In this document: in pieces, positions 5,282-34,475 of the stretch
How positions within the stretch are numbered: the first letter of the stretch is position 1
Layout: the number at the start of each line of letters is the position of its first letter
IMG/VR virus record: IMGVR_UViG_3300006030_000014
Span: 1 to 38,112 of that record
DNA length: 38,112 bases
Source of the DNA: a virus
Direction: 5' to 3' (one strand)
The notes under the pieces: model-generated
What the model was told of the DNA's origin: nothing
Seen by the model: the letters and a program-made list of their open reading frames with translations, nothing else
The model's database searches: none
Program-made: the position numbers and the translations under genes

Positions 5282-5439
5282 AGAATATCAAGACGCCACG
5301 CACGTTGGCCGAATGCTCGTTTGAGGTCGGCTATTCACAAGCTTATCTTGAAAAACGTTCTCTCGCGGCTTACAGGTTCCTGCAAATCCTTGTGGTGGCC
5401 TGCTGCCTTTTCTTTGTCTACATCCTTACGAAAGTCTGA
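5278..5439 (+). CDS. Small single-pass membrane protein (TTG start)
   Basis: A 53-residue protein starting at a TTG that overlaps the ssb stop, with GAGG seven bases upstream. The first 32 residues are soluble and charged. The end, FLQILVVACCLFFVYIL then TKV, is a clear transmembrane helix. The orientation would leave most of it in the cytoplasm. The family is not recognised; membrane micro-proteins in this position could act in host takeover. Confidence 0.6.
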   Translation: MKNIKTPRTLAECSFEVGYSQAYLEKRSLAAYRFLQILVVACCLFFVYILTKV

Positions 5440-5442
5440 GAA

Positions 5443-5667
5443 ATGAAAAAGATACAACAAATCAAGAAACTCTCAAAGCAGGGCATGAAGCCACGCGAAA
5501 TTGCTTCTTTGCTTGGGACCACTCGGCAGTACGTCTATACGGTCCGTTCTGAAATGAAAAAGAAAGCGGCCAAGATGAAGCCGGTCAAGGTCGTGGAATT
5601 AAGCTTTTTTGACAAACTTAAATTGAAGGTCGCATCATGGATCAAGCCCACTTCGATCACCCGTTGA
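5443..5667 (+). CDS. Small helix-turn-helix protein
   Basis: A 74-residue basic protein. Residues 4-35 form a helix-turn-helix of resolvase/Trp-repressor type (IKKLSKQGMKPREIASLLG then TTRQYVYTVR). The rest is Lys-rich, so it should bind nucleic acid. It is the only clear DNA-binding regulator candidate in the window. It could be an early-gene regulator, or a recombination accessory given its position after ssb. It begins three bases after the stop of the membrane micro-protein. Confidence 0.7.
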   Translation: MKKIQQIKKLSKQGMKPREIASLLGTTRQYVYTVRSEMKKKAAKMKPVKVVELSFFDKLKLKVASWIKPTSITR

Positions 5668-5828
5668 ACATTGTGATCGGTTATGGCCGGATTATTTATG
5701 TCGATATCTACGAGTCATGGGTGCTCCCCGGAGGGACGTACACAAAGAGTCAAGAAATCGCAGAGTCCACCGCTCGATTGATTGATGAATTGACTCGTCA
5801 GCATCAGGATCGCCACAAATGGGATTGA
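5637..5828 (+). CDS. Small protein, unknown function
   Basis: A 63-residue acidic protein starting at an ATG inside the end of the HTH gene (31-base overlap). It has a beta-rich first half and a helical Glu/Arg-rich second half ending DRHKWD. No motif is recognised. The overlaps with both neighbours and its even codon use support translation. Confidence 0.6.
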   Translation: MDQAHFDHPLNIVIGYGRIIYVDIYESWVLPGGTYTKSQEIAESTARLIDELTRQHQDRHKWD

Positions 5829-6031
5829 CTGCTTGGTTCAACCCCACACAAAAGCCTCGACGCGCTGGCGTCTATCAACGACGCCATCGCCATCACGGGT
5901 TTTATGTATGGGCATTGTGGGACGGATCGAAATGGATGCGAGGCTGTTCAACGGTTAATGAGGCCGCAACAGAAACACAATCATCAACTCATCAATTGAC
6001 GGGCTTTTATTGGCGAGGTCTTTTGAAATGA
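5819..6031 (+). CDS. Small conserved phage protein, unknown
   Basis: A 70-residue protein of a type I recall from proteobacterial phage early regions: NPTQKPRRAGVYQRR, then WALWDGSKW, then QLTGFYWRGL near the end. The recurrent P-x2-P-x2-GVY, W-x-W and WRGL pattern suggests a compact beta-sheet domain of unknown function. It overlaps the preceding stop by ten bases and ends in an ATGA overlap with the next gene. Confidence 0.65.
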   Translation: MGLTAWFNPTQKPRRAGVYQRRHRHHGFYVWALWDGSKWMRGCSTVNEAATETQSSTHQLTGFYWRGLLK

Positions 6032-24715: not shown

Positions 24716-24883
24716 TTAGTGATATTTGGCGAGGACCGACAAAACAACAGCTTCAGCGGTATCAGGCTCAACTTCAGCAAGAGCGTCCTCGAGTTCATCA
24801 TGATCGACTACTTGAGCACGCGCCGCCATGTCAAGGTCGCCCCGAAGGGCAACCAATTCGTCAATGATTTCTTGGAGGCTCAT
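24716..24883 (-). CDS. Small acidic protein next to the tail genes
   Basis: A 55-residue acidic helical protein (SLQEIIDELVALRGDLDMAA, with VVDHDELEDALAEVEPD). Its ATG overlaps the TAA of the second major tail protein by one base (TAATG), with GGAG nine bases upstream; the gene ends three bases before the next. The compact coupling makes it real although short. Function unknown. Confidence 0.65.
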   Translation of the reverse strand: MSLQEIIDELVALRGDLDMAARAQVVDHDELEDALAEVEPDTAEAVVLSVLAKYH

Positions 24884-25401
24884 TAGTTGTTACTCCAACC
24901 GTATTGATTACCGCGGGGGTGAATCGTGAACACGCATTTGGCTTCAGCGCCGGGTTGAGCATCGATTTGGAACTGCCCCACACGCGCATTAAAAGCGTAG
25001 GCGATGGTGTTTGTCCCATCTACCGCGGCCACCACAAATGTGCGATCCACAATCCCGGAATAGGCGTCAGAACGGATCTGAAGCAGTGCGGTATCCGAAG
25101 GATTCCACGCAGCCGTGATCGTCATTGAGGTTGGAGCGGACTGCACCGGGATCTTGTCGGATTGACGCGATCCAGCGACCCCGAAGGAGGCCACGGCGTC
25201 ATCTTGGCCAAACGCAGGAACCGCTTCCACAGGAACGGCCACGCCAGCCGATCCAGTGCCGTTTGCAGCCGTGCCAACGATGGTTTGGACTTGAGATGCC
25301 CATACCGACAAATTGGCCGTCGAGAGCGCCGTAGGCGTAGCCGCGGATTGCATCCAAAGCGATGCGCTAAAACCCGGCAATACTTTATTTGGAACTGACA
25401 T
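24883..25401 (-). CDS. Major tail tube protein, paralogue B
   Basis: A 172-residue protein closely related to the gene just upstream (25410-25904). They share an identical block of more than 40 residues beginning EAVPAFGQDDAVASFGVAG, and the ending HPRGNQYGWSNN. Paralogue B has about 11 extra residues near 45-56. Length, position before the chaperone and the beta pattern fit a siphophage tail tube protein. Across the identical block the DNA of the two copies differs at many synonymous sites, so both seem to be under selection. Two tube proteins could build a mixed tube or make separate tube and tip rings. Confidence 0.75.
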   Translation of the reverse strand: MSVPNKVLPGFSASLWMQSAATPTALSTANLSVWASQVQTIVGTAANGTGSAGVAVPVEAVPAFGQDDAVASFGVAGSRQSDKIPVQSAPTSMTITAAWNPSDTALLQIRSDAYSGIVDRTFVVAAVDGTNTIAYAFNARVGQFQIDAQPGAEAKCVFTIHPRGNQYGWSNN

Positions 25402-25409
25402 TTTTCACC

Positions 25410-25904
25410 TCAAGCGTTGTTAGACCAGCCGTATTGGTTTCCACGGGGATGAATCGTGAAAGTCGCTTTAGCTTCTGCTCCGGGCTGCGCGTCAATCTGG
25501 AATTGACCCACACGACCATTAAAAGCGTAATAAACGATATTTGAGCCATCAGAGGCCGAAATCACATAAGTACGCTCTGTAATGCCAGAATAAGCATCGG
25601 TACGGATTTGCTGAATCACTGTGTCAGACGGATTCCATGCCGCAGTAATGGTCATGGAAGTCGGCGCGGACTGAACCGGGATTTTGTCGGATTGCCGAGA
25701 ACCGGCCACGCCAAAAGAAGCAACCGCATCATCTTGACCAAAAGCAGGAACTGCTTCGATCAACATTTGGTTACCACTGACAGCAATTGCCGAGACGTTT
25801 GCCAAAGTAGACAATTGAGCAACTGTTAACGCCGTAGGAGAAGCCCCCGACTGAGCGTACATCGCCGCACTGAAACCCGGTAAAACTTTATTTGGGAGGC
25901 TCAT
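25410..25904 (-). CDS. Major tail tube protein, paralogue A
   Basis: A 164-residue protein, nearest in order to the head-tail connector genes. MSLPNKVLPGFSAAMYAQSG, a divergent stretch (30-48), then the conserved block shared with paralogue B, then FQIDAQPGAEAKATFTIHPR. It is the tube protein expected just after the tail terminator; no immunoglobulin-like extra domain is present. The pair lies only eight bases apart, in the same frame direction, consistent with a tandem duplication. Which copy forms the bulk of the tube cannot be told from sequence. Confidence 0.75.
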   Translation of the reverse strand: MSLPNKVLPGFSAAMYAQSGASPTALTVAQLSTLANVSAIAVSGNQMLIEAVPAFGQDDAVASFGVAGSRQSDKIPVQSAPTSMTITAAWNPSDTVIQQIRTDAYSGITERTYVISASDGSNIVYYAFNGRVGQFQIDAQPGAEAKATFTIHPRGNQYGWSNNA

Positions 25905-26690: not shown

Positions 26691-27362
26691 TTACATTACC
26701 AATGGCTTGTAAGGTTTCAGTAATTGATCAAAACCAAATGGAATGTTGTGCTGGATCGGTCCAGTTGTGTTTGCGCGATTGTTGTACAGATGCGTCAACA
26801 ATAGCAGTCCAGCTTGCTTAATTACAGGGTAAGTGGACAAAGGATTTGCCACTGTGTTGTAAACAGCAATGACCGGAGCCGTCATCATGAAGTTGATGTT
26901 GCTAGGCAATTCGGTCAAAACGATCTTATTTCCAGACGGGTCGTAGTAATACGTTGTTGGAGACAGCAACACAAACGTCGATGGCGTGGAAGCATTCCAG
27001 TATCCCACCGACGTAACCGTTACACCGGGCAACGTCGTGTTGTAGTTTTGCGAGACCTCTGGAAGATCAAGCGACAATGGGATGCCCCAAAGCGTTGAAG
27101 CTTGGTAATACACCCGATATGTGGCCGGGAAAATAGACAACCCAAGATAGTCTTCAACAGCCTGTCGCGTTGCCAACTCAAGGCTTTTTAGGTAAACGTC
27201 TTGGCTTTCATCGTCAACTAAATTAAGTTGTTGAGAAATCTCATCAAGAGACAGCCACGGCGTTGCAATGTCACGGTTGATCTGTTCAACTTTTTGATAG
27301 TTGAACGGATTGCGTGAAGCCGCAAGATCCGGCGCAAAGCTCAACAAATCATTTGTTGACAT
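26691..27362 (-). CDS. Head-tail connector protein (gp6-like)
   Basis: A 223-residue protein following the second capsid gene by one base. The central part, LKSLELATRQAVEDYLGLSI then YRVYYQ, is the pattern of HK97 gp6/phiE125 gp8-like connectors, which bind below the portal. The extended N-terminus (about 40 residues) and the C-terminal AGLLLLTHLYNNR then N are also usual for the family, whose members are 100-220 residues long. Confidence 0.75.
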   Translation of the reverse strand: MSTNDLLSFAPDLAASRNPFNYQKVEQINRDIATPWLSLDEISQQLNLVDDESQDVYLKSLELATRQAVEDYLGLSIFPATYRVYYQASTLWGIPLSLDLPEVSQNYNTTLPGVTVTSVGYWNASTPSTFVLLSPTTYYYDPSGNKIVLTELPSNINFMMTAPVIAVYNTVANPLSTYPVIKQAGLLLLTHLYNNRANTTGPIQHNIPFGFDQLLKPYKPLVM

Positions 27363-27363
27363 T

Positions 27364-28368
27364 TCAGACCTTCACGCGAACACCAGCAAACGGATTGCGA
27401 ACAGAACTCACCACTCGCTTTTCGGCGTACATGGTCACGAAGCCGGGTTTGGTTTGTTCCATCATCTGCACCGAGAACTCAGTGTGGTCGCCAATCGTCA
27501 AGAATTGAGGCCAATTGGCAAGGTAGATTGGATAAGTGCTTGATAGATACGGGTTTGGAATAACGGGCCAGCCAAAGATACGGCCCACTGCTCCACCATC
27601 TTCATCACCCACTTCCAAGAAGATCGGCAGACCTTGCAAATCAGTCAGATCGCGCAAGGCTTGAATCGTGGCCGGACTAATGTGCCACGCAGTGCCCGGA
27701 AGACTCCAATATTGACCGGGCAATTTAGACGCGGCAGCAGTAATGTCCGTATACGCTACAGCCGTGGTTGCCGTTTGCGTGGCAATGCTGTGGATACCAT
27801 TTGTAATGGCCGTGCCAGAAGTGCCATAGGCGCTTGCAGAAGCATCGGCATACATATCCAAACCACGCAGACCAGAAGTCGCGCCTGTGGTCGTTGTAGT
27901 GCTTCCTGCTTGGTCATTATTGATCGCCATTGATGCGCCCTCAAGCTGAGAGAACTCTTGCATCAAGTCGCCAACGATTGCGGGATCAAGATTGTTAACG
28001 TCTGACAACACCGCGGTGCGGATCGGCAGTTGAGCCGCAACAACACGAACAGGGAGTTGCCAAATTGTTGTATTTGTACCGGGGGATCCGGCGTCAGGAA
28101 CTACTGTATAGCCCCAAGGATTACCAGCTTGGTTTGTTGCGTTACCGGTCTTGGCAACGAATTGCATATCGGAGCCCATTGCAGGAACGATCCGAGATGC
28201 TTGACGGAAAGGGTTTGCGTAACGCAGTGCGGCGAACGCATCGTCGAACACAACATTACCACCAACTCCCGAACCAGAGCCAGTGATGGATGAAGCCTCA
28301 CGCAAGTCAATGTTGACTCGTTTGTGTTCGTGAATAGCTTGCTTAATTGATTCGAGAATTGTGGTCAT
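27364..28368 (-). CDS. Second major capsid protein (HK97 fold), paralogue 2
   Basis: A 334-residue HK97-type capsid protein without the N-terminal scaffold (delta) domain: MTTILESIKQAIHEHKRVNI leads in about 30 residues to the shell domain. It aligns along its length with the upstream capsid protein: FAALRYANPFRQASR with FVALRLYNPMRGLSR, SIWQL with TTIWQL, QFPIRTA with QLPIRTA, LRGLD, QYW, RNPFAGVR with RDPFSGVR. So it is a diverged tandem duplicate, not a fragment. Alone it lacks a scaffold, so it would have to co-assemble with paralogue 1, perhaps as pentamers or a minor shell form. Confidence 0.85.
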   Translation of the reverse strand: MTTILESIKQAIHEHKRVNIDLREASSITGSGSGVGGNVVFDDAFAALRYANPFRQASRIVPAMGSDMQFVAKTGNATNQAGNPWGYTVVPDAGSPGTNTTIWQLPVRVVAAQLPIRTAVLSDVNNLDPAIVGDLMQEFSQLEGASMAINNDQAGSTTTTTGATSGLRGLDMYADASASAYGTSGTAITNGIHSIATQTATTAVAYTDITAAASKLPGQYWSLPGTAWHISPATIQALRDLTDLQGLPIFLEVGDEDGGAVGRIFGWPVIPNPYLSSTYPIYLANWPQFLTIGDHTEFSVQMMEQTKPGFVTMYAEKRVVSSVRNPFAGVRVKV

Positions 28369-28397
28369 GTTGATACTCTGCTAAAGGTCAGAAAAGA

Positions 28398-28414
28398 AGG
28401 GGCGCAAGGCCCCT
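28398..28414 (-). terminator. Hairpin between the two capsid genes, possible attenuator
   Basis: On the minus strand AGGGGC-CTTGC-GCCCCT is a perfect 6-bp stem starting five bases after the first capsid stop. It is followed by TCTTTTCT, an imperfect U run. It could partly stop transcription and lower expression of everything downstream of paralogue 1, starting with paralogue 2, or protect the first message from 3-prime decay. Confidence 0.6.
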
Positions 28415-28418
28415 CCCA

Positions 28419-29762
28419 TCAAGCACCAGTTGCGGTGGAGCGATAGCGCACACCAGAGAAGGGGTCGCGCACCGAGGTGGCGAGACGCTTCTCACCGAAG
28501 AACGTGATATAGCCGGGCAACGTCTGGTCGTAGCGGCGCATGATCATGTTCAAGCGGTCGATGATTGTGTGATAACGCTGCCAATCGCAGAACCACAGGG
28601 GATACAGCGACGTAGTACCAGCAGAACCACCAGCAGAGGTCGGGTTATCAACGTATTTGTTGACCACCACATCGAAGCCCAACAGTTGACCAACGATTCC
28701 GGGCTCAGCAGCAGGGTGCATACGCTCAAAAATCGGTGTGCCGTTGTTGTCTTTCAGACCACGGATCGCAGCCAACATCACTGGATTGATCATCCACTTC
28801 GCAGTGGGGGTCCAGTATTGTTGCGGCAGCGCGTAGACCATGTTCACCAGATCTTGGAATGTGACGTTGTTCGTCGATCCAAAACCGTTGGTGGTCAACT
28901 GGTCATACGTTGCCAGCGAGTGCAGGCCGGAAGTGCTCGAGGTGCCAGAGGTGCCGAAAGCAGCAGTAGAAGTCGTGCCACCAGCGTAAGGCGAATTTGC
29001 GCCGCCGTACTGGTCCAAACCACGCAAGCCATCAGCGCCACCCGTGGTCACGGTAGAACCCGTGCCGGTCTGGTCGTTGTTGGAAATCATGGATTGGCCT
29101 TCAGCTTGGCTGAACTCGGCCAGCATATCGTCAACGACATTAGCTTCCAAACCATCAATGTCATCCAGAGCCGCAGTACGGATCGGGAACTGCACGTTGA
29201 TGTCTTTCAGCACCAATTGCCAAATGCTGGTGTTTTCAGTTGTCGGCGTGCCGTTGTCTTGAATGCCATAGCCCCACTGAGCGCCAGCGTTGCCGGTCTT
29301 GACGCGGAACTGATAGGACGAGCCATCAGTAGCGACAGTACGCGACAGGCCACGCATCGGGTTGTACAGACGCAGAGCAACGAACACGGGGTCGTATGCA
29401 GTGCGACCGCCCTTGCCGTCACCGCCAGCAGTCAACTGCGATGCTTCGTTCAGATAAGCCATGTATTCCGACTCATCAGCAAACATCTTCAGTTCTTTTT
29501 CGATTTGCTTGCCGCCTTTGTAGAAAGCAGCGAGTTGCTCACGAACAGAACGGTTAACGTCTTGACGAACCGATTTGGCGATAGGACGAATGATTTCGGG
29601 AGCTTGCACGGAGGCCACTTTGGCTTCCAGCGCAGCAATCTTTTCATTCACTTCGGCCTTGACAGCTTCGGCAACTTCAGCAGCCTTGGTGACTGCTTCT
29701 TCAGCCTTGGCAATGGTGGACTGCTCGATGGCGTCCAGCTTTTCCAGAATAACTTGAGACAT
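28419..29762 (-). CDS. Major capsid protein (HK97 fold) with scaffold domain, paralogue 1
   Basis: A 447-residue protein. Residues 1-105 form a Glu/Lys/Ala-rich coiled coil, the delta scaffold domain, probably removed by the protease encoded just upstream near residues 105-118 (SQLTAGGDGKGG). The remaining 330 residues are the shell domain: FVALRLYNPMRGLSR, SSYQFRVKTGNAGA, a conserved WGYG, DDIDGLEANVVDDMLAEFSQ, then LPQQYW and the C-terminal RDPFSGVR. It is the main capsid candidate because it has its own scaffold and precedes the hairpin. Confidence 0.9.
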   Translation of the reverse strand: MSQVILEKLDAIEQSTIAKAEEAVTKAAEVAEAVKAEVNEKIAALEAKVASVQAPEIIRPIAKSVRQDVNRSVREQLAAFYKGGKQIEKELKMFADESEYMAYLNEASQLTAGGDGKGGRTAYDPVFVALRLYNPMRGLSRTVATDGSSYQFRVKTGNAGAQWGYGIQDNGTPTTENTSIWQLVLKDINVQFPIRTAALDDIDGLEANVVDDMLAEFSQAEGQSMISNNDQTGTGSTVTTGGADGLRGLDQYGGANSPYAGGTTSTAAFGTSGTSSTSGLHSLATYDQLTTNGFGSTNNVTFQDLVNMVYALPQQYWTPTAKWMINPVMLAAIRGLKDNNGTPIFERMHPAAEPGIVGQLLGFDVVVNKYVDNPTSAGGSAGTTSLYPLWFCDWQRYHTIIDRLNMIMRRYDQTLPGYITFFGEKRLATSVRDPFSGVRYRSTATGA

Positions 29763-29764
29763 GA

Positions 29765-30559
29765 TTAGCCTTTCAAACGGGCATTGAGTATTTTGAGAAG
29801 TTCGCGCTCTTCAAGAGCTTGAAGAATCTCAGCTTCGGTCGCTTCCGCGGCAGAATCACTCTGTACGGGCGTTTCGTTCTCAACCTTTTGCTCTGCATCC
29901 CGCTCAGCAATGACAGTCTTGAACACGGACGCGGCAGCGACCGCATCCCGTTTGGATAGCCCTGCATCCCGCAGCGCCGACTCCAAAACTTTGAGATCAG
30001 CAGAACCATCAGGCCGGAAATATTCCAGCTTCTGGACTTCTGCTTGAGGATTATTTGGGTGCATGACTACGGACACTTCGTGCAAACCACCTTTAGTGAT
30101 TTGGAAATATCCTTCCATATCATCTGAACCGGCAGTCATTGGAGTGCCGTCTTCTTTGACCCACTGATATTCGTCAGCGTAAGCACCAACCGAAACGCCG
30201 CCAAACATATTGGGGCTTTCGGTCATAATTTGATAAAGGTCGGAGCCGGTGGTTGTATTGACATACATCCGGCCACAAGCAGTCATGCCGGTATCATCAA
30301 ATTCAAACGATGTCCATTCGCCAACAGGAATCGCATTGGATTCATGATTAACGAACATGGGCAAAGGACGCCCAGCCTTTGAGAAATCTTCAGCCCATTG
30401 CATAAATCCTTCGGGCTGATAATTAAATTTGCGTCCGTCTGCGCCTTCTCGAGCACCCCAAGTAGTAACTCGGGCCTCAATCTTTCCGGTCGGTTCTGCG
30501 TGGTCTGCCTCTTTTTCGAGGTTGAGTTTCGCTTCGCAGATGATCTGGACTTGTTTCAT
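29765..30559 (-). CDS. Prohead maturation protease (HK97 gp4-like, U35)
   Basis: A 264-residue serine protease of the HK97 gp4/herpes assemblin fold. The conserved H72 occurs in PMFVNHESNAIPVGEW, and S123 in MFGGVSVGAYADEY, as in the family His...Ser arrangement. EVSVVMHPNNPQAEV is the conserved final strand. The tail (about 205-264) is acidic and coiled, probably a scaffold-binding part. AGGGGT lies six bases before the ATG at 30559. It cleaves the delta domain of the capsid protein that follows. Confidence 0.85.
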   Translation of the reverse strand: MKQVQIICEAKLNLEKEADHAEPTGKIEARVTTWGAREGADGRKFNYQPEGFMQWAEDFSKAGRPLPMFVNHESNAIPVGEWTSFEFDDTGMTACGRMYVNTTTGSDLYQIMTESPNMFGGVSVGAYADEYQWVKEDGTPMTAGSDDMEGYFQITKGGLHEVSVVMHPNNPQAEVQKLEYFRPDGSADLKVLESALRDAGLSKRDAVAAASVFKTVIAERDAEQKVENETPVQSDSAAEATEAEILQALEERELLKILNARLKG

Positions 30560-30668: not shown

Positions 30669-32066
30669 TCAAGTCTTACCAATATTGGCTTTGCGTTTTT
30701 GATTACCGCCGCCACCGCCCGTGTCTTGTGGGGATGATCCGGGAGTCGGTTCTGCTTTTTTGGCGTCAACTTTTAATTCGTCGCCGCCTTCAATAAATGG
30801 CATTCCAAGATATTCCCGTGCCTCATTTGGCGTCATTATGCCAGCAGCTACCGCGGCAGACACATAATTAACTTGGTCCAGCGGAGCGCCTTTTAGGAAA
30901 TTGCGAGTATCAAACTCAATATGCAATGACGGATATCCGGCCAAAAGACTTTGCTTTAGCTTTTGCTGGATATTAGTGATAATTGGAAACATCGTGGATT
31001 TATAGAATTCATCCAGCAATGTTTGAGTATTGTTGTATTTTTGGTCTTGAATTCCGATCATCGCCGGAGGGACTCCAAAAAGACCAGCAATCCGCTTCAT
31101 TGTCTGAAGCTTCAACTCCCGCGCATCCGCATCTTGAAGATTCAGCATCTCAAGACGCTCGTACTTCATGCCCGAATCCAGCAGCATCCCTTGGCCCGGT
31201 TTGGACGGATCAGTCTGCCGTGAATTTGTCATTGACGCCCACGCCTCTTTTAAACGGGCCGCAATTTCTTTGTATTTTCCATCGGGGATGACTTGATCGG
31301 TCACAAACATCCCAGAGGGCTTTGCGCCGTTCAGCATGATGTAGTTGGCGTACAGGTCGATGTCTTGGTCTAGGCTGACCAATTCAACGGCCAGAATGCC
31401 GCGGTTAAAGCCTGCGGAGCCCTGCCAAGGGGCTTCCTTGATGTGCATGACTTGGTGGGCCTGCAACGGCTGATCCTTGGAAAATCCGTAGGATGGTGTC
31501 GAGAGGCGATATTGGGGATAACGAGTAGGCGTCAATTGGACCGCGATCAAGGTCGAGTCCAAGATGTACATCTCAATAGGCGTCTGTGTCGGATTCGTCT
31601 GATCCTTGCGATACCAAAGCGTGAAGGTTTCGCCGGTCAGGTCATGCCACATGAGCCACTGATACCAGAACTCATATTGCGACTGAAACGCATTGGGGTT
31701 TTGCAGCAGGCCAAGAACTTGATTGGCCTTCGTGGCATTGTGCTTTGATACTTTGTCGGATGTAGACGCATCGACATAAGTACCGTCATCAAGCCTGCAC
31801 ATAACTCGAACAGGCAATTGAGACAATGCTCGAGCTTTAATAGAAACACAAGCCATCACCGTGGAATTACGACTTAGCGTCGAAATATCCAGCACTCGAC
31901 CCGCTTGATTGACGGTCGAGGTAGTGACATAGAGGATTTGGGTGTTAACTGTTCCGCGTTTGGAATCACCTTGGTAGATGATATTATTTCCCAAGGAAGT
32001 TTGACCAAATAGCGTGTTTGATGAGTTGTCATCAGACTTTTTCTTGAAAATATCAAACAATTTCAT
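30669..32066 (-). CDS. Portal protein (HK97 family)
   Basis: A 465-residue portal of the phage_portal/HK97 type: a disordered start (about 1-55), then VLDISTLSRNSTVMACVSIK followed by RALSQLPVRVM, the family signature. Next come WQGSAGFNRGILAVELVSLD and the channel region FGVPPAMIGIQDQKYNN (about 330-346), and a helical C-terminal crown with EGGDEL. It forms the dodecamer at the packaging vertex, which terminase docks on. The ATG lies inside the end of the homing endonuclease gene, which overlaps it by 14 bases. Confidence 0.9.
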   Translation of the reverse strand: MKLFDIFKKKSDDNSSNTLFGQTSLGNNIIYQGDSKRGTVNTQILYVTTSTVNQAGRVLDISTLSRNSTVMACVSIKARALSQLPVRVMCRLDDGTYVDASTSDKVSKHNATKANQVLGLLQNPNAFQSQYEFWYQWLMWHDLTGETFTLWYRKDQTNPTQTPIEMYILDSTLIAVQLTPTRYPQYRLSTPSYGFSKDQPLQAHQVMHIKEAPWQGSAGFNRGILAVELVSLDQDIDLYANYIMLNGAKPSGMFVTDQVIPDGKYKEIAARLKEAWASMTNSRQTDPSKPGQGMLLDSGMKYERLEMLNLQDADARELKLQTMKRIAGLFGVPPAMIGIQDQKYNNTQTLLDEFYKSTMFPIITNIQQKLKQSLLAGYPSLHIEFDTRNFLKGAPLDQVNYVSAAVAAGIMTPNEAREYLGMPFIEGGDELKVDAKKAEPTPGSSPQDTGGGGGNQKRKANIGKT

Positions 32067-32724
32067 CGCTATTCCTTGGAATAAATGACCAACCGTCTTT
32101 TGGCTTGTACAAGTACAACTTGCCGTTTTTCACACATTTATTGCCAAAACATCTTACACGAATGGCTTTTTCTTTGCAATTGTTGGCTGCCGCCGCTTTA
32201 GCAACAGTCTCAAAAACTCCCATTGGCGTACTGTAGTAGCCTTTAAATTGAACATTTTTGACGCCTACTTTTTTGTATTCGTCACGTTTCCATACAGGAA
32301 TCCACCCTTCTTCAATCTTTTTTGCCATCGTCTTTTTGCGTTTGTCGATGGTCTTTTGCGTCTGTTTTTTGCCGATATTTGCCAGTTTCAACTTATTTTT
32401 GTGGATTTCGGTCTTTGGCACCCCTTTATTTACCGGATTCCCCGTCTGGCCGTAGCCGCCGAGCGTGCGATTGCAGAGCTTGCCTAATGATGCAAAGTAT
32501 CGAATAAACCGCTGTTCTTCATTGAATGACTGCTGTTCTGTCAAGCCAGATCGAATGATTGTGACCTTAAAGCCCCCATGCTTGGCAACAATTGAATTCC
32601 AATGGTTGTTTCGTGACAATGGGCTCCATGCTCGTTTGCCGCATCCTTTGCCGACATAGAACACTTCTCCATTTGGTTTTAGGTGGATGTATACATAAAA
32701 CCGTGTAGACTCTGCATCGCTCAT
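32053..32724 (-). CDS. GIY-YIG homing endonuclease (free-standing)
   Basis: A 223-residue protein. FYVYIHLKPNGEVFYVGKG (residues 9-27) is a GIY-YIG-class motif, with R31 and a downstream Glu near 62 as likely catalytic residues. A basic linker (IHKNKLKLANIGKKQTQKTI, about 107-126) resembles the NUMOD-type minor-groove segments that bind target DNA. A C-terminal domain (GVFETVAKAAAANNCKEKA) is a likely helix-turn-helix. It stands alone between terminase and portal genes, as SegA-SegE type genes do in T4. Its target would be an allele of the terL-portal junction lacking it. Lys-rich, AT-richer codons fit recent insertion. Confidence 0.85.
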   Translation of the reverse strand: MSDAESTRFYVYIHLKPNGEVFYVGKGCGKRAWSPLSRNNHWNSIVAKHGGFKVTIIRSGLTEQQSFNEEQRFIRYFASLGKLCNRTLGGYGQTGNPVNKGVPKTEIHKNKLKLANIGKKQTQKTIDKRKKTMAKKIEEGWIPVWKRDEYKKVGVKNVQFKGYYSTPMGVFETVAKAAAANNCKEKAIRVRCFGNKCVKNGKLYLYKPKDGWSFIPRNSDEIV

Positions 32725-32795: not shown

Positions 32796-34475
32796 TTATA
32801 GCTCAAGACTTCGGAAACCCCAAGCGTCAGACACAAACACGTTGTCCAAATGGCAGTGTACGGCCATAATCATTGTAATGATCCCATCCACCTTTGCGGA
32901 AGGGTCTGCTTCGTTCTTGCGAACCTTGATATTGCCGTTAACGTCGGTATAAACCTCGCAATTGCCCAATTGCCAGCCCACAAACGGGTTGCCATCGTGT
33001 TTGATGGCTTTCTTCATAATAAGTTGCTCAGTGGCCTTGGAAGGGCTGGAAAGCATCGCCATTCCCTGCCCAATCTTCTTGACCGGCAGGCCATCGGCGT
33101 ACAAATTAGCCACTAGGTTGGTGGCGTTGTAGGGGTCATACCCTATTTCCTTGACTTTATACCTTTCGCATTCCTTACGGATGTATTGCTCAATTTCATT
33201 GGTATCGGTCACATTACCGGACGTCAGCTTGAGAATACCCGTTTTGACTGCCTGCAAATAAGTGGACTTGTAATGGTTTGGGATTAACTCGAGCGAGTCT
33301 TCCGGCAAAAAGAACTGAAACTTGGCATAAAAGTCTTCTTCCGTGTAGCGGTGAAGCGTACAAACCGCGTTCAAATCTCTAGAATATGCGAGGTCGAATG
33401 CAATAAAAGTGCTTTCCGGCTCCCTAGAGTCCATCTCAGCAATTGACTCATCCCAATATTTGCGGTCCAACCACGCGGTGTTGGCTGACACATAAATATT
33501 GAGCTGCTTGCAAAGAAACTCGTTAAGGCTGGCAGGTTTAGCCGAAGCTTCCGCGGCCATTTGGGAAATGTGCTCAGTGGACACCGAAATGCCCAACATG
33601 GGATTGGCCTTGCCCCACGTCTTGGGGTCGGCCCAATTGTCGCCTTGGTCGATGCTGTACAGCAGGCCAAACCACTTGTTTGTGTCTTCCGCGGCACCCC
33701 TCAAAACGCTTCTAAAGTGCGTCAGATCCTCGTAGAACTTGGTTTCCTTGGTAAAGGATGCCGTGGTCATATAAAGGCGCAGCGGGTTCTTGCGTGCGCC
33801 CATACCAGAATGCAAGACCTCAATAGATGACCGCTCGGTGATCTGAGCCGCCTCATCGATGATTGCGCAGGACGGATTCTTGCCATCACCGGTCTTCCGG
33901 TTTTCTCGAGACAGTGCCCGATATGTCGAGGTGGAATCGCCTTGCTTTTTGATCTCCGACCGATAAACCAGAAACTTCGCGGCCAGATTGGCGTCCATGG
34001 CCTCGGTAATGGCCTTGGAGGAGTCAAAGCAGATGGAGGCTTGATCTCGGTTGGTGGCTAGGGTAAAGACTTCGGAACCAGCATCGCCAAACTGAAGCTC
34101 ATATAACGCAATGATTGAGGCAATCGTTGTTTTGCCGGACTTGCGAGGTACGAACAAAATAACGTCAGTCACCCATCGTTTTGACTGATCTTTCCGATCT
34201 CGAAACCCATAGATACCCGCTATCAGCAGAATCTGAAACGGTTCCAGCAGGATCGGCTTTCCAGCATCCGGTCCTTTGACGTGGCGGCAGAACTTGACGA
34301 ACTTGAGCGGGTGCTCGGCCTTGGCAGGCACAAACTCATACGGAGCGTCCTTCTTCTCAGCCATGTCCAGAAACCTCTGGCAGGCCAGCCGGACATCTTC
34401 ACAGGCCACAATATCGCCCCGGCATACTCCCGAGGCGTACTGGAATGCAGGCTCAAGCAGTGGCGAATAACTCAT
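32796..34475 (-). CDS. terL: Terminase large subunit
   Basis: A 559-residue packaging motor-nuclease of the HK97 TerL group. Walker A is FVPRKSGKT (109-117); Walker B is CAIID207E208AAQ; LYMTTAS (234-240) is the coupling motif. The nuclease domain starts with FIAFD361LAYSRDLNA, and KVDGIITMIMA near 532 gives another metal-binding Asp. Length fits the family (500-600). It overlaps TerS by 23 bases. It would cut concatemers, probably at cos near the region 34837-35162. Confidence 0.95.
   Translation of the reverse strand: MSYSPLLEPAFQYASGVCRGDIVACEDVRLACQRFLDMAEKKDAPYEFVPAKAEHPLKFVKFCRHVKGPDAGKPILLEPFQILLIAGIYGFRDRKDQSKRWVTDVILFVPRKSGKTTIASIIALYELQFGDAGSEVFTLATNRDQASICFDSSKAITEAMDANLAAKFLVYRSEIKKQGDSTSTYRALSRENRKTGDGKNPSCAIIDEAAQITERSSIEVLHSGMGARKNPLRLYMTTASFTKETKFYEDLTHFRSVLRGAAEDTNKWFGLLYSIDQGDNWADPKTWGKANPMLGISVSTEHISQMAAEASAKPASLNEFLCKQLNIYVSANTAWLDRKYWDESIAEMDSREPESTFIAFDLAYSRDLNAVCTLHRYTEEDFYAKFQFFLPEDSLELIPNHYKSTYLQAVKTGILKLTSGNVTDTNEIEQYIRKECERYKVKEIGYDPYNATNLVANLYADGLPVKKIGQGMAMLSSPSKATEQLIMKKAIKHDGNPFVGWQLGNCEVYTDVNGNIKVRKNEADPSAKVDGIITMIMAVHCHLDNVFVSDAWGFRSLEL

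Follow-up and report, generated by a model that had tools for sequence, protein, structure and literature searches.

The window, that is, the whole stretch of DNA analysed here, is an entire virus record of 38,112 bases and represents a siphophage of 38 kb. On its minus strand two related genes, hereafter A and B, stand next to each other with a gap of 50 bases between them. Gene A (28419..29762, minus strand) encodes a major capsid protein of 447 aa with an N-terminal scaffold (delta-like) domain, whereas B (27364..28368, minus strand) encodes a second HK97-fold shell protein of 334 aa that has no such domain and that we propose below as a vertex (pentamer) protein. Their surroundings are those of a standard siphophage head module (TerS, TerL, portal, S78 protease, A, B and head-tail adaptor), followed by the major tail proteins and the tape measure. 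The neighbours, all on the minus strand, were recognised by their family matches: the terminase large subunit (TerL; 32796..34475; PF20441 and PF03354), the portal protein (30669..32066; PF04860, E 8.5e-60), the prohead maturation protease (Peptidase_S78; 29765..30559; PF04586, E 4.2e-9; PHROG 3244) and the head-tail adaptor (Ad1 / gp6-like; 26691..27362; PHROG 40, E 4.2e-10; PF05135). The arrangement of two adjacent paralogous shell genes is firm.

Two further features of this region were recorded. An open reading frame between TerL and portal (32053-32724) matches the homing endonuclease family PHROG 314 (E 2e-15). The tail genes include tandem major-tail-protein paralogues (24883-25401 and 25410-25904; both PHROG 158, 70% identical), and both copies were detected in 71 loci of the set described below, so the tail tube may also comprise two paralogues.

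Two HK97-fold proteins of common descent

The first-pass annotation of this DNA had described the two products as full HK97-fold shell proteins of shared ancestry, and each part of that description was borne out. Both proteins match PHROG 10 (major head protein) and belong to the Pfam family PF05065 (Phage_capsid; curated cut-off 24.2 bits), with 99.7 bits for A (E 2.5e-28) and 65.5 bits for B (E 6.8e-18). When the translations were aligned with BLASTP, A and B were 41% identical over 325 residues (E 3e-66), and a profile-profile comparison gave a probability of 100% (E 4.6e-91). The structure of B predicted with 58 sequences (mean pLDDT 74.9, pTM 0.76) has the HK97 fold, as it superimposes on the solved HK97-fold capsid 9gyi_A with Z 21.0 and on the capsid of RcGTA (6tb9) with Z 20.8 and rmsd 3.6 over 246 aligned residues. 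The model of A is weaker and of low confidence (mean pLDDT 59), yet it matches the RcGTA capsid 6tsu with Z 19.4 and rmsd 3.8 over 245 residues, likewise indicating the HK97 fold.

The relatives of the window, in which the first-pass annotation had suggested looking for the same pair, were collected by searching IMG/VR with A and B queries and then with alignment queries. This gave 263 loci including the window and phage P19250A, some of them overlapping on the same contig. A is followed by B on the same strand in 253 of these, including three with one gene whose reading frame is disrupted; the remaining 10 loci hold a single gene each and are cut by contig ends. Complete proteins alone make up 178 distinct A/B pairs. 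One scan of genome contigs added five further pairs, whose contigs had been binned with one archaeal and four proteobacterial assemblies; it also yielded two fragments truncated at the pair or inside it. Among the retrieved loci there was no untruncated relative without B, and no match to B was found in plasmids. The sole named phage found with the pair is Methylophilaceae phage P19250A (KX815270).

A tree was built from 39 A proteins, 39 B proteins and six single-capsid outgroups, in which all A proteins fall on one side and all B proteins on the other. SH-aLRT support was 100 for A and B together to the exclusion of the outgroups, 90 for the B branch and only 43 for the A group. Since A and B form separate clades, the duplication is older than the group, and a single duplication preceding the diversification of the group is the simplest reading. 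The outgroups used are distant and sit on long branches, which leaves the placement of the root between A and B uncertain; a closer single-capsid relative with which to root the duplication was found neither in the genome contigs nor in the viral contigs. A recent duplication restricted to the phage of the window was ruled out by the tree and the relatives.

According to the tree, B evolves faster than A in protein sequence. Over 30 independent pairs, the median dN/dS was 0.109 for A and 0.111 for B, and on this measure B is under strong purifying selection, equal to that on A. In 27 of these 30 pairs B showed more synonymous divergence than A. That B might be a pseudogene or resemble A by chance was ruled out by its dN/dS of 0.11 and the BLASTP E value given above.

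In several relatives the interval between the two genes is longer. Locus L003 contains there (5617-5958) a domain of ~100 residues that matches PHROG 2859 (unknown function; E 1.2e-26), and a domain of this type also lies between A and B in L009, L060, L075, L088, L089, L097 and L101. As the domain is in frame with B, B may bear an N-terminal fusion in those relatives. The A-B spacer of L025 is 574 bases long (5409-5982) and has an open frame that, judged by eye, resembles a homing-endonuclease fragment.

Divergence and probable dose of the two proteins

The scaffold domain had initially been assigned to the first protein only, and this holds throughout the group: the median number of residues before the shared EAS..T motif is 105 in A and 26 in B. 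In the window, the domain covers ~residues 1-105 of A (29448..29762, minus strand) and corresponds to a gap in all B proteins of the alignment; helices are predicted at residues 2-51, 65-82 and 97-109 of A, in the model of low confidence. The ~23 residues that precede the shared arm in the window's B (~residues 1-23; 28300..28368, minus strand) are modelled as a helix (2-14) and a strand (18-21). In an alignment made with VIA-align, residue 2 of B falls next to residue 76 in HK97 prohead I, within the HK97 delta domain, and from the model this short segment may be what is left of a prodomain.

Beyond the scaffold domain, A exceeds B in length mainly through three stretches of 6-8 residues each in the A-domain part that B lacks; B has an insertion of its own, 3 residues long, in the E-loop part. 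The A-domain part of B also has a conserved acidic loop (residues 251-259, LEVGDEDGG; 27592..27618, minus strand), in which G254 is retained in 59/59 representatives and E252 in 55/59, whereas the loop of A at this position is unlike it and varies more. A profile alignment (69% probability) sets the acidic loop against IFGGPQAFTS of HK97 gp5, a region that we take to lie near the capsomer axis in HK97. The alignment of A with HK97 gp5 alone is weak (probability 11%), and we therefore claim no exact mapping to HK97 residues. In all, 62 positions are conserved in both A and B.

Directly 3' of the stop codon of A, the window contains GGGAGGGGCCTTGCGCCCCTTCTTTTC (28387..28417, minus strand), a terminator-like hairpin with a T-rich tail, which together with its flanks folds at -16.3 kcal/mol (z -2.85 relative to shuffled sequences). 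A scan of the window for consensus terminators missed it, and it was detected by direct comparison across relatives. Counterparts with varied stem sequences, each a hairpin with a T run, follow A in 51/59 representatives, as compared with 17/1180 base-shuffled spacers. The same combination follows TerL in 0/32 cases, portal in 0/42, protease in 3/50, B in 0/57, the adaptor in 0/54 and the second tail-tube gene in 9/39. Three relatives with longer A-B spacers of ~90 bases (L007, L090 and L104) have a second inverted repeat after the terminator-like hairpin.

Codon bias was used as a proxy for expression, one that is influenced also by gene length and amino-acid content. A has the lowest effective codon number (39.1), followed by B (43.3) and the tail-tube genes (43.3 and 43.7), while adaptor, portal, protease and TerL span 48.7-50.7 (portal 49.2, TerL 50.7). 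The ranking recurs within individual loci, B exceeding A in 202/215 and portal exceeding B in 143/155. The hairpin, the codon bias and the synonymous divergence, all of them proxies, suggest much A, middling B and little packaging machinery. A hairpin at this place would reduce all downstream genes, B not being singled out.

Proposed head architecture and comparison with known systems

Adjacent related shell genes with an apparent expression brake between them imply that the heads are probably made of two different bricks, a composition seldom met outside the large T4-type phages. We propose hexamers of A and vertices (pentamers) of B, the two working like gp23 and gp24 of T4; to this reading, comprising both co-assembly and position, we assign a probability of about 55%. 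It is suggested by an N-terminal asymmetry the same as that in T4, by the divergence in the A domain and by the probable difference in dose. A would be the major, self-scaffolding subunit, with its N-terminal domain guiding prohead assembly. This domain would then be removed by the S78 protease, whose gene lies directly upstream, and A, once processed, would fill the hexamers. B, having no long scaffold domain, would probably join a shell nucleated by A; as a minor subunit, its likeliest place would be the eleven five-fold vertices, as for gp24 of T4. The dose is probably set by the putative partial terminator directly after A, which, if its presumed strength is right, would lower transcription from B onwards.

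The vertices of small phages are normally filled by the major protein, which counts against a vertex role for B. Support for co-assembly and for the hexamer/pentamer split may be drawn from the equal selection, the hairpin, the codon-bias ranking and the T4-like differences in the A domain. A decorated or size-switching shell had also been raised at first, and nothing specific was found to support it.

As far as sequence goes, the data would be compatible with B in pentamers or in other fixed or mixed positions. Single capsomers might contain both A and B, at fixed or variable positions as in the two-component Family 2B encapsulins, and this mixing might tune the stability or curvature of the shell, a possibility that we rate as rather low although it is the main rival. 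Such mixing would agree with the conserved tandem order, the equal selection and the positions conserved in both paralogues, and encapsulins set a precedent for mixed HK97-fold shells (PMC12407261). However, a distinct place is the better fit for a protein that lacks the scaffold domain and whose A-domain part has a loop of another kind and shorter stretches, and the probable excess of A fits a minority position for B. A heteromeric shell in which the two share capsomers, fixed or irregularly tiled, would mean a small self-scaffolding phage with a two-protein patterning of the head undescribed for tailed phages, and we consider it unlikely.

We regard it as improbable that B is instead a minor shell protein with a particular site or function, for instance in the portal ring, in regulating assembly or in determining size. 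The location of its gene between the capsid and head-tail adaptor genes and its intermediate codon bias would suit this role, but that bias is clearly stronger than in portal, protease and TerL, which argues against a very low copy number, and the full shell fold is retained. It is very unlikely that B stands outside the A virion, either unexpressed or forming a separate particle, for although presence in a genome proves neither expression nor co-assembly, purifying selection on B equals that on A, every untruncated relative has B, and B has no scaffold domain for self-assembly.

By profile, the solved structures nearest to the proposed hexamer and vertex proteins are the RcGTA capsid Rcc01687 (6tb9; E 1.5e-9 for A and 7e-6 for B) and HK97 gp5. 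Both are also close in fold. HK97 resembles the present phage in its gene order, with the protease before the capsid, but it uses one capsid protein for hexamers and pentamers (PMC13185644), where here there are two. The named relative P19250A has a genome of 38.7 kb with this gene pair in the same order; its two proteins share 60% (A) and 59% (B) identity with those of the window. In its record A is labelled 'gene transfer agent capsid protein' and B 'hypothetical protein', which indicates that the pair was not recognised there; its B (L151, 6066-7124) could be re-annotated as an HK97-fold shell protein. The marine phage Venkman, whose gene order is reported to be similar to that of P19250A (PMC8163748), was rejected as a pair-bearing relative, as its annotation shows a single capsid gene with the scaffold encoded separately. 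A second capsid paralogue, diverged and relocated, occurs in the large Caulobacter phage Colossus (PMC3556154).

The two-component Family 2B encapsulins of Streptomyces lydicus likewise have two adjacent HK97-fold shell genes, and their products co-assemble (PMC12407261). The model of B matches both encapsulin chains (9bje, Z 16.1; 9bix, Z 15.7). Unlike a phage head, these encapsulins form a cellular compartment, and they contain an extra E-loop domain; the corresponding cyclic-nucleotide-binding-like domain (PF00027) had no match in A or B at E 0.001.

According to a 2026 review, a single gene product makes up the T=7 head in phages of ~40 kb such as HK97 and P22, and distinct penton proteins are uncommon, T4 being the cited example (PMC13185644). 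This agrees with the initial view of the pair as unusual for a 38-kb siphophage, yet in its own lineage, as sampled here, it is universal. In the literature, of which our coverage was incomplete, no other small phage or siphophage with paired HK97-fold shell proteins was found.

In T4, the hexamers consist of gp23 and the vertices of gp24; cleavage by the protease takes 65 residues off gp23 and 10 off gp24, and the mutations in gp23 that bypass gp24 include A-domain sites between subunits of the same capsomer (PMC9958956). As with A and B, these are HK97-fold paralogues of which the major protein bears a long N-terminal piece and the minor one a much shorter one (PMC9958956, PMC3012670); here a median of 26 residues precedes the shared motif in the proposed minor paralogue, compared with 105 in A, and their cleavage is presumed. 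Divergence in the A domain is common to both pairs. The systems differ in that the T4 head is large and prolate, with the scaffold core as a separate component, and in that gp23 and gp24 are only ~20% identical, compared with 41% for A and B. Neither A nor B matched the T4-type capsid families in Pfam at E 0.001, both matching only PF05065. If our proposal is true, the gene now annotated as hypothetical acquires a function, and what a small genome gains by devoting 1 kb to another shell protein becomes a testable question in a widespread group of small, apparently self-scaffolding phages that strictly keep the pair. Such a group would also be a second, probably independent case of divided labour between hexamers and pentamers, in a system much simpler than T4.
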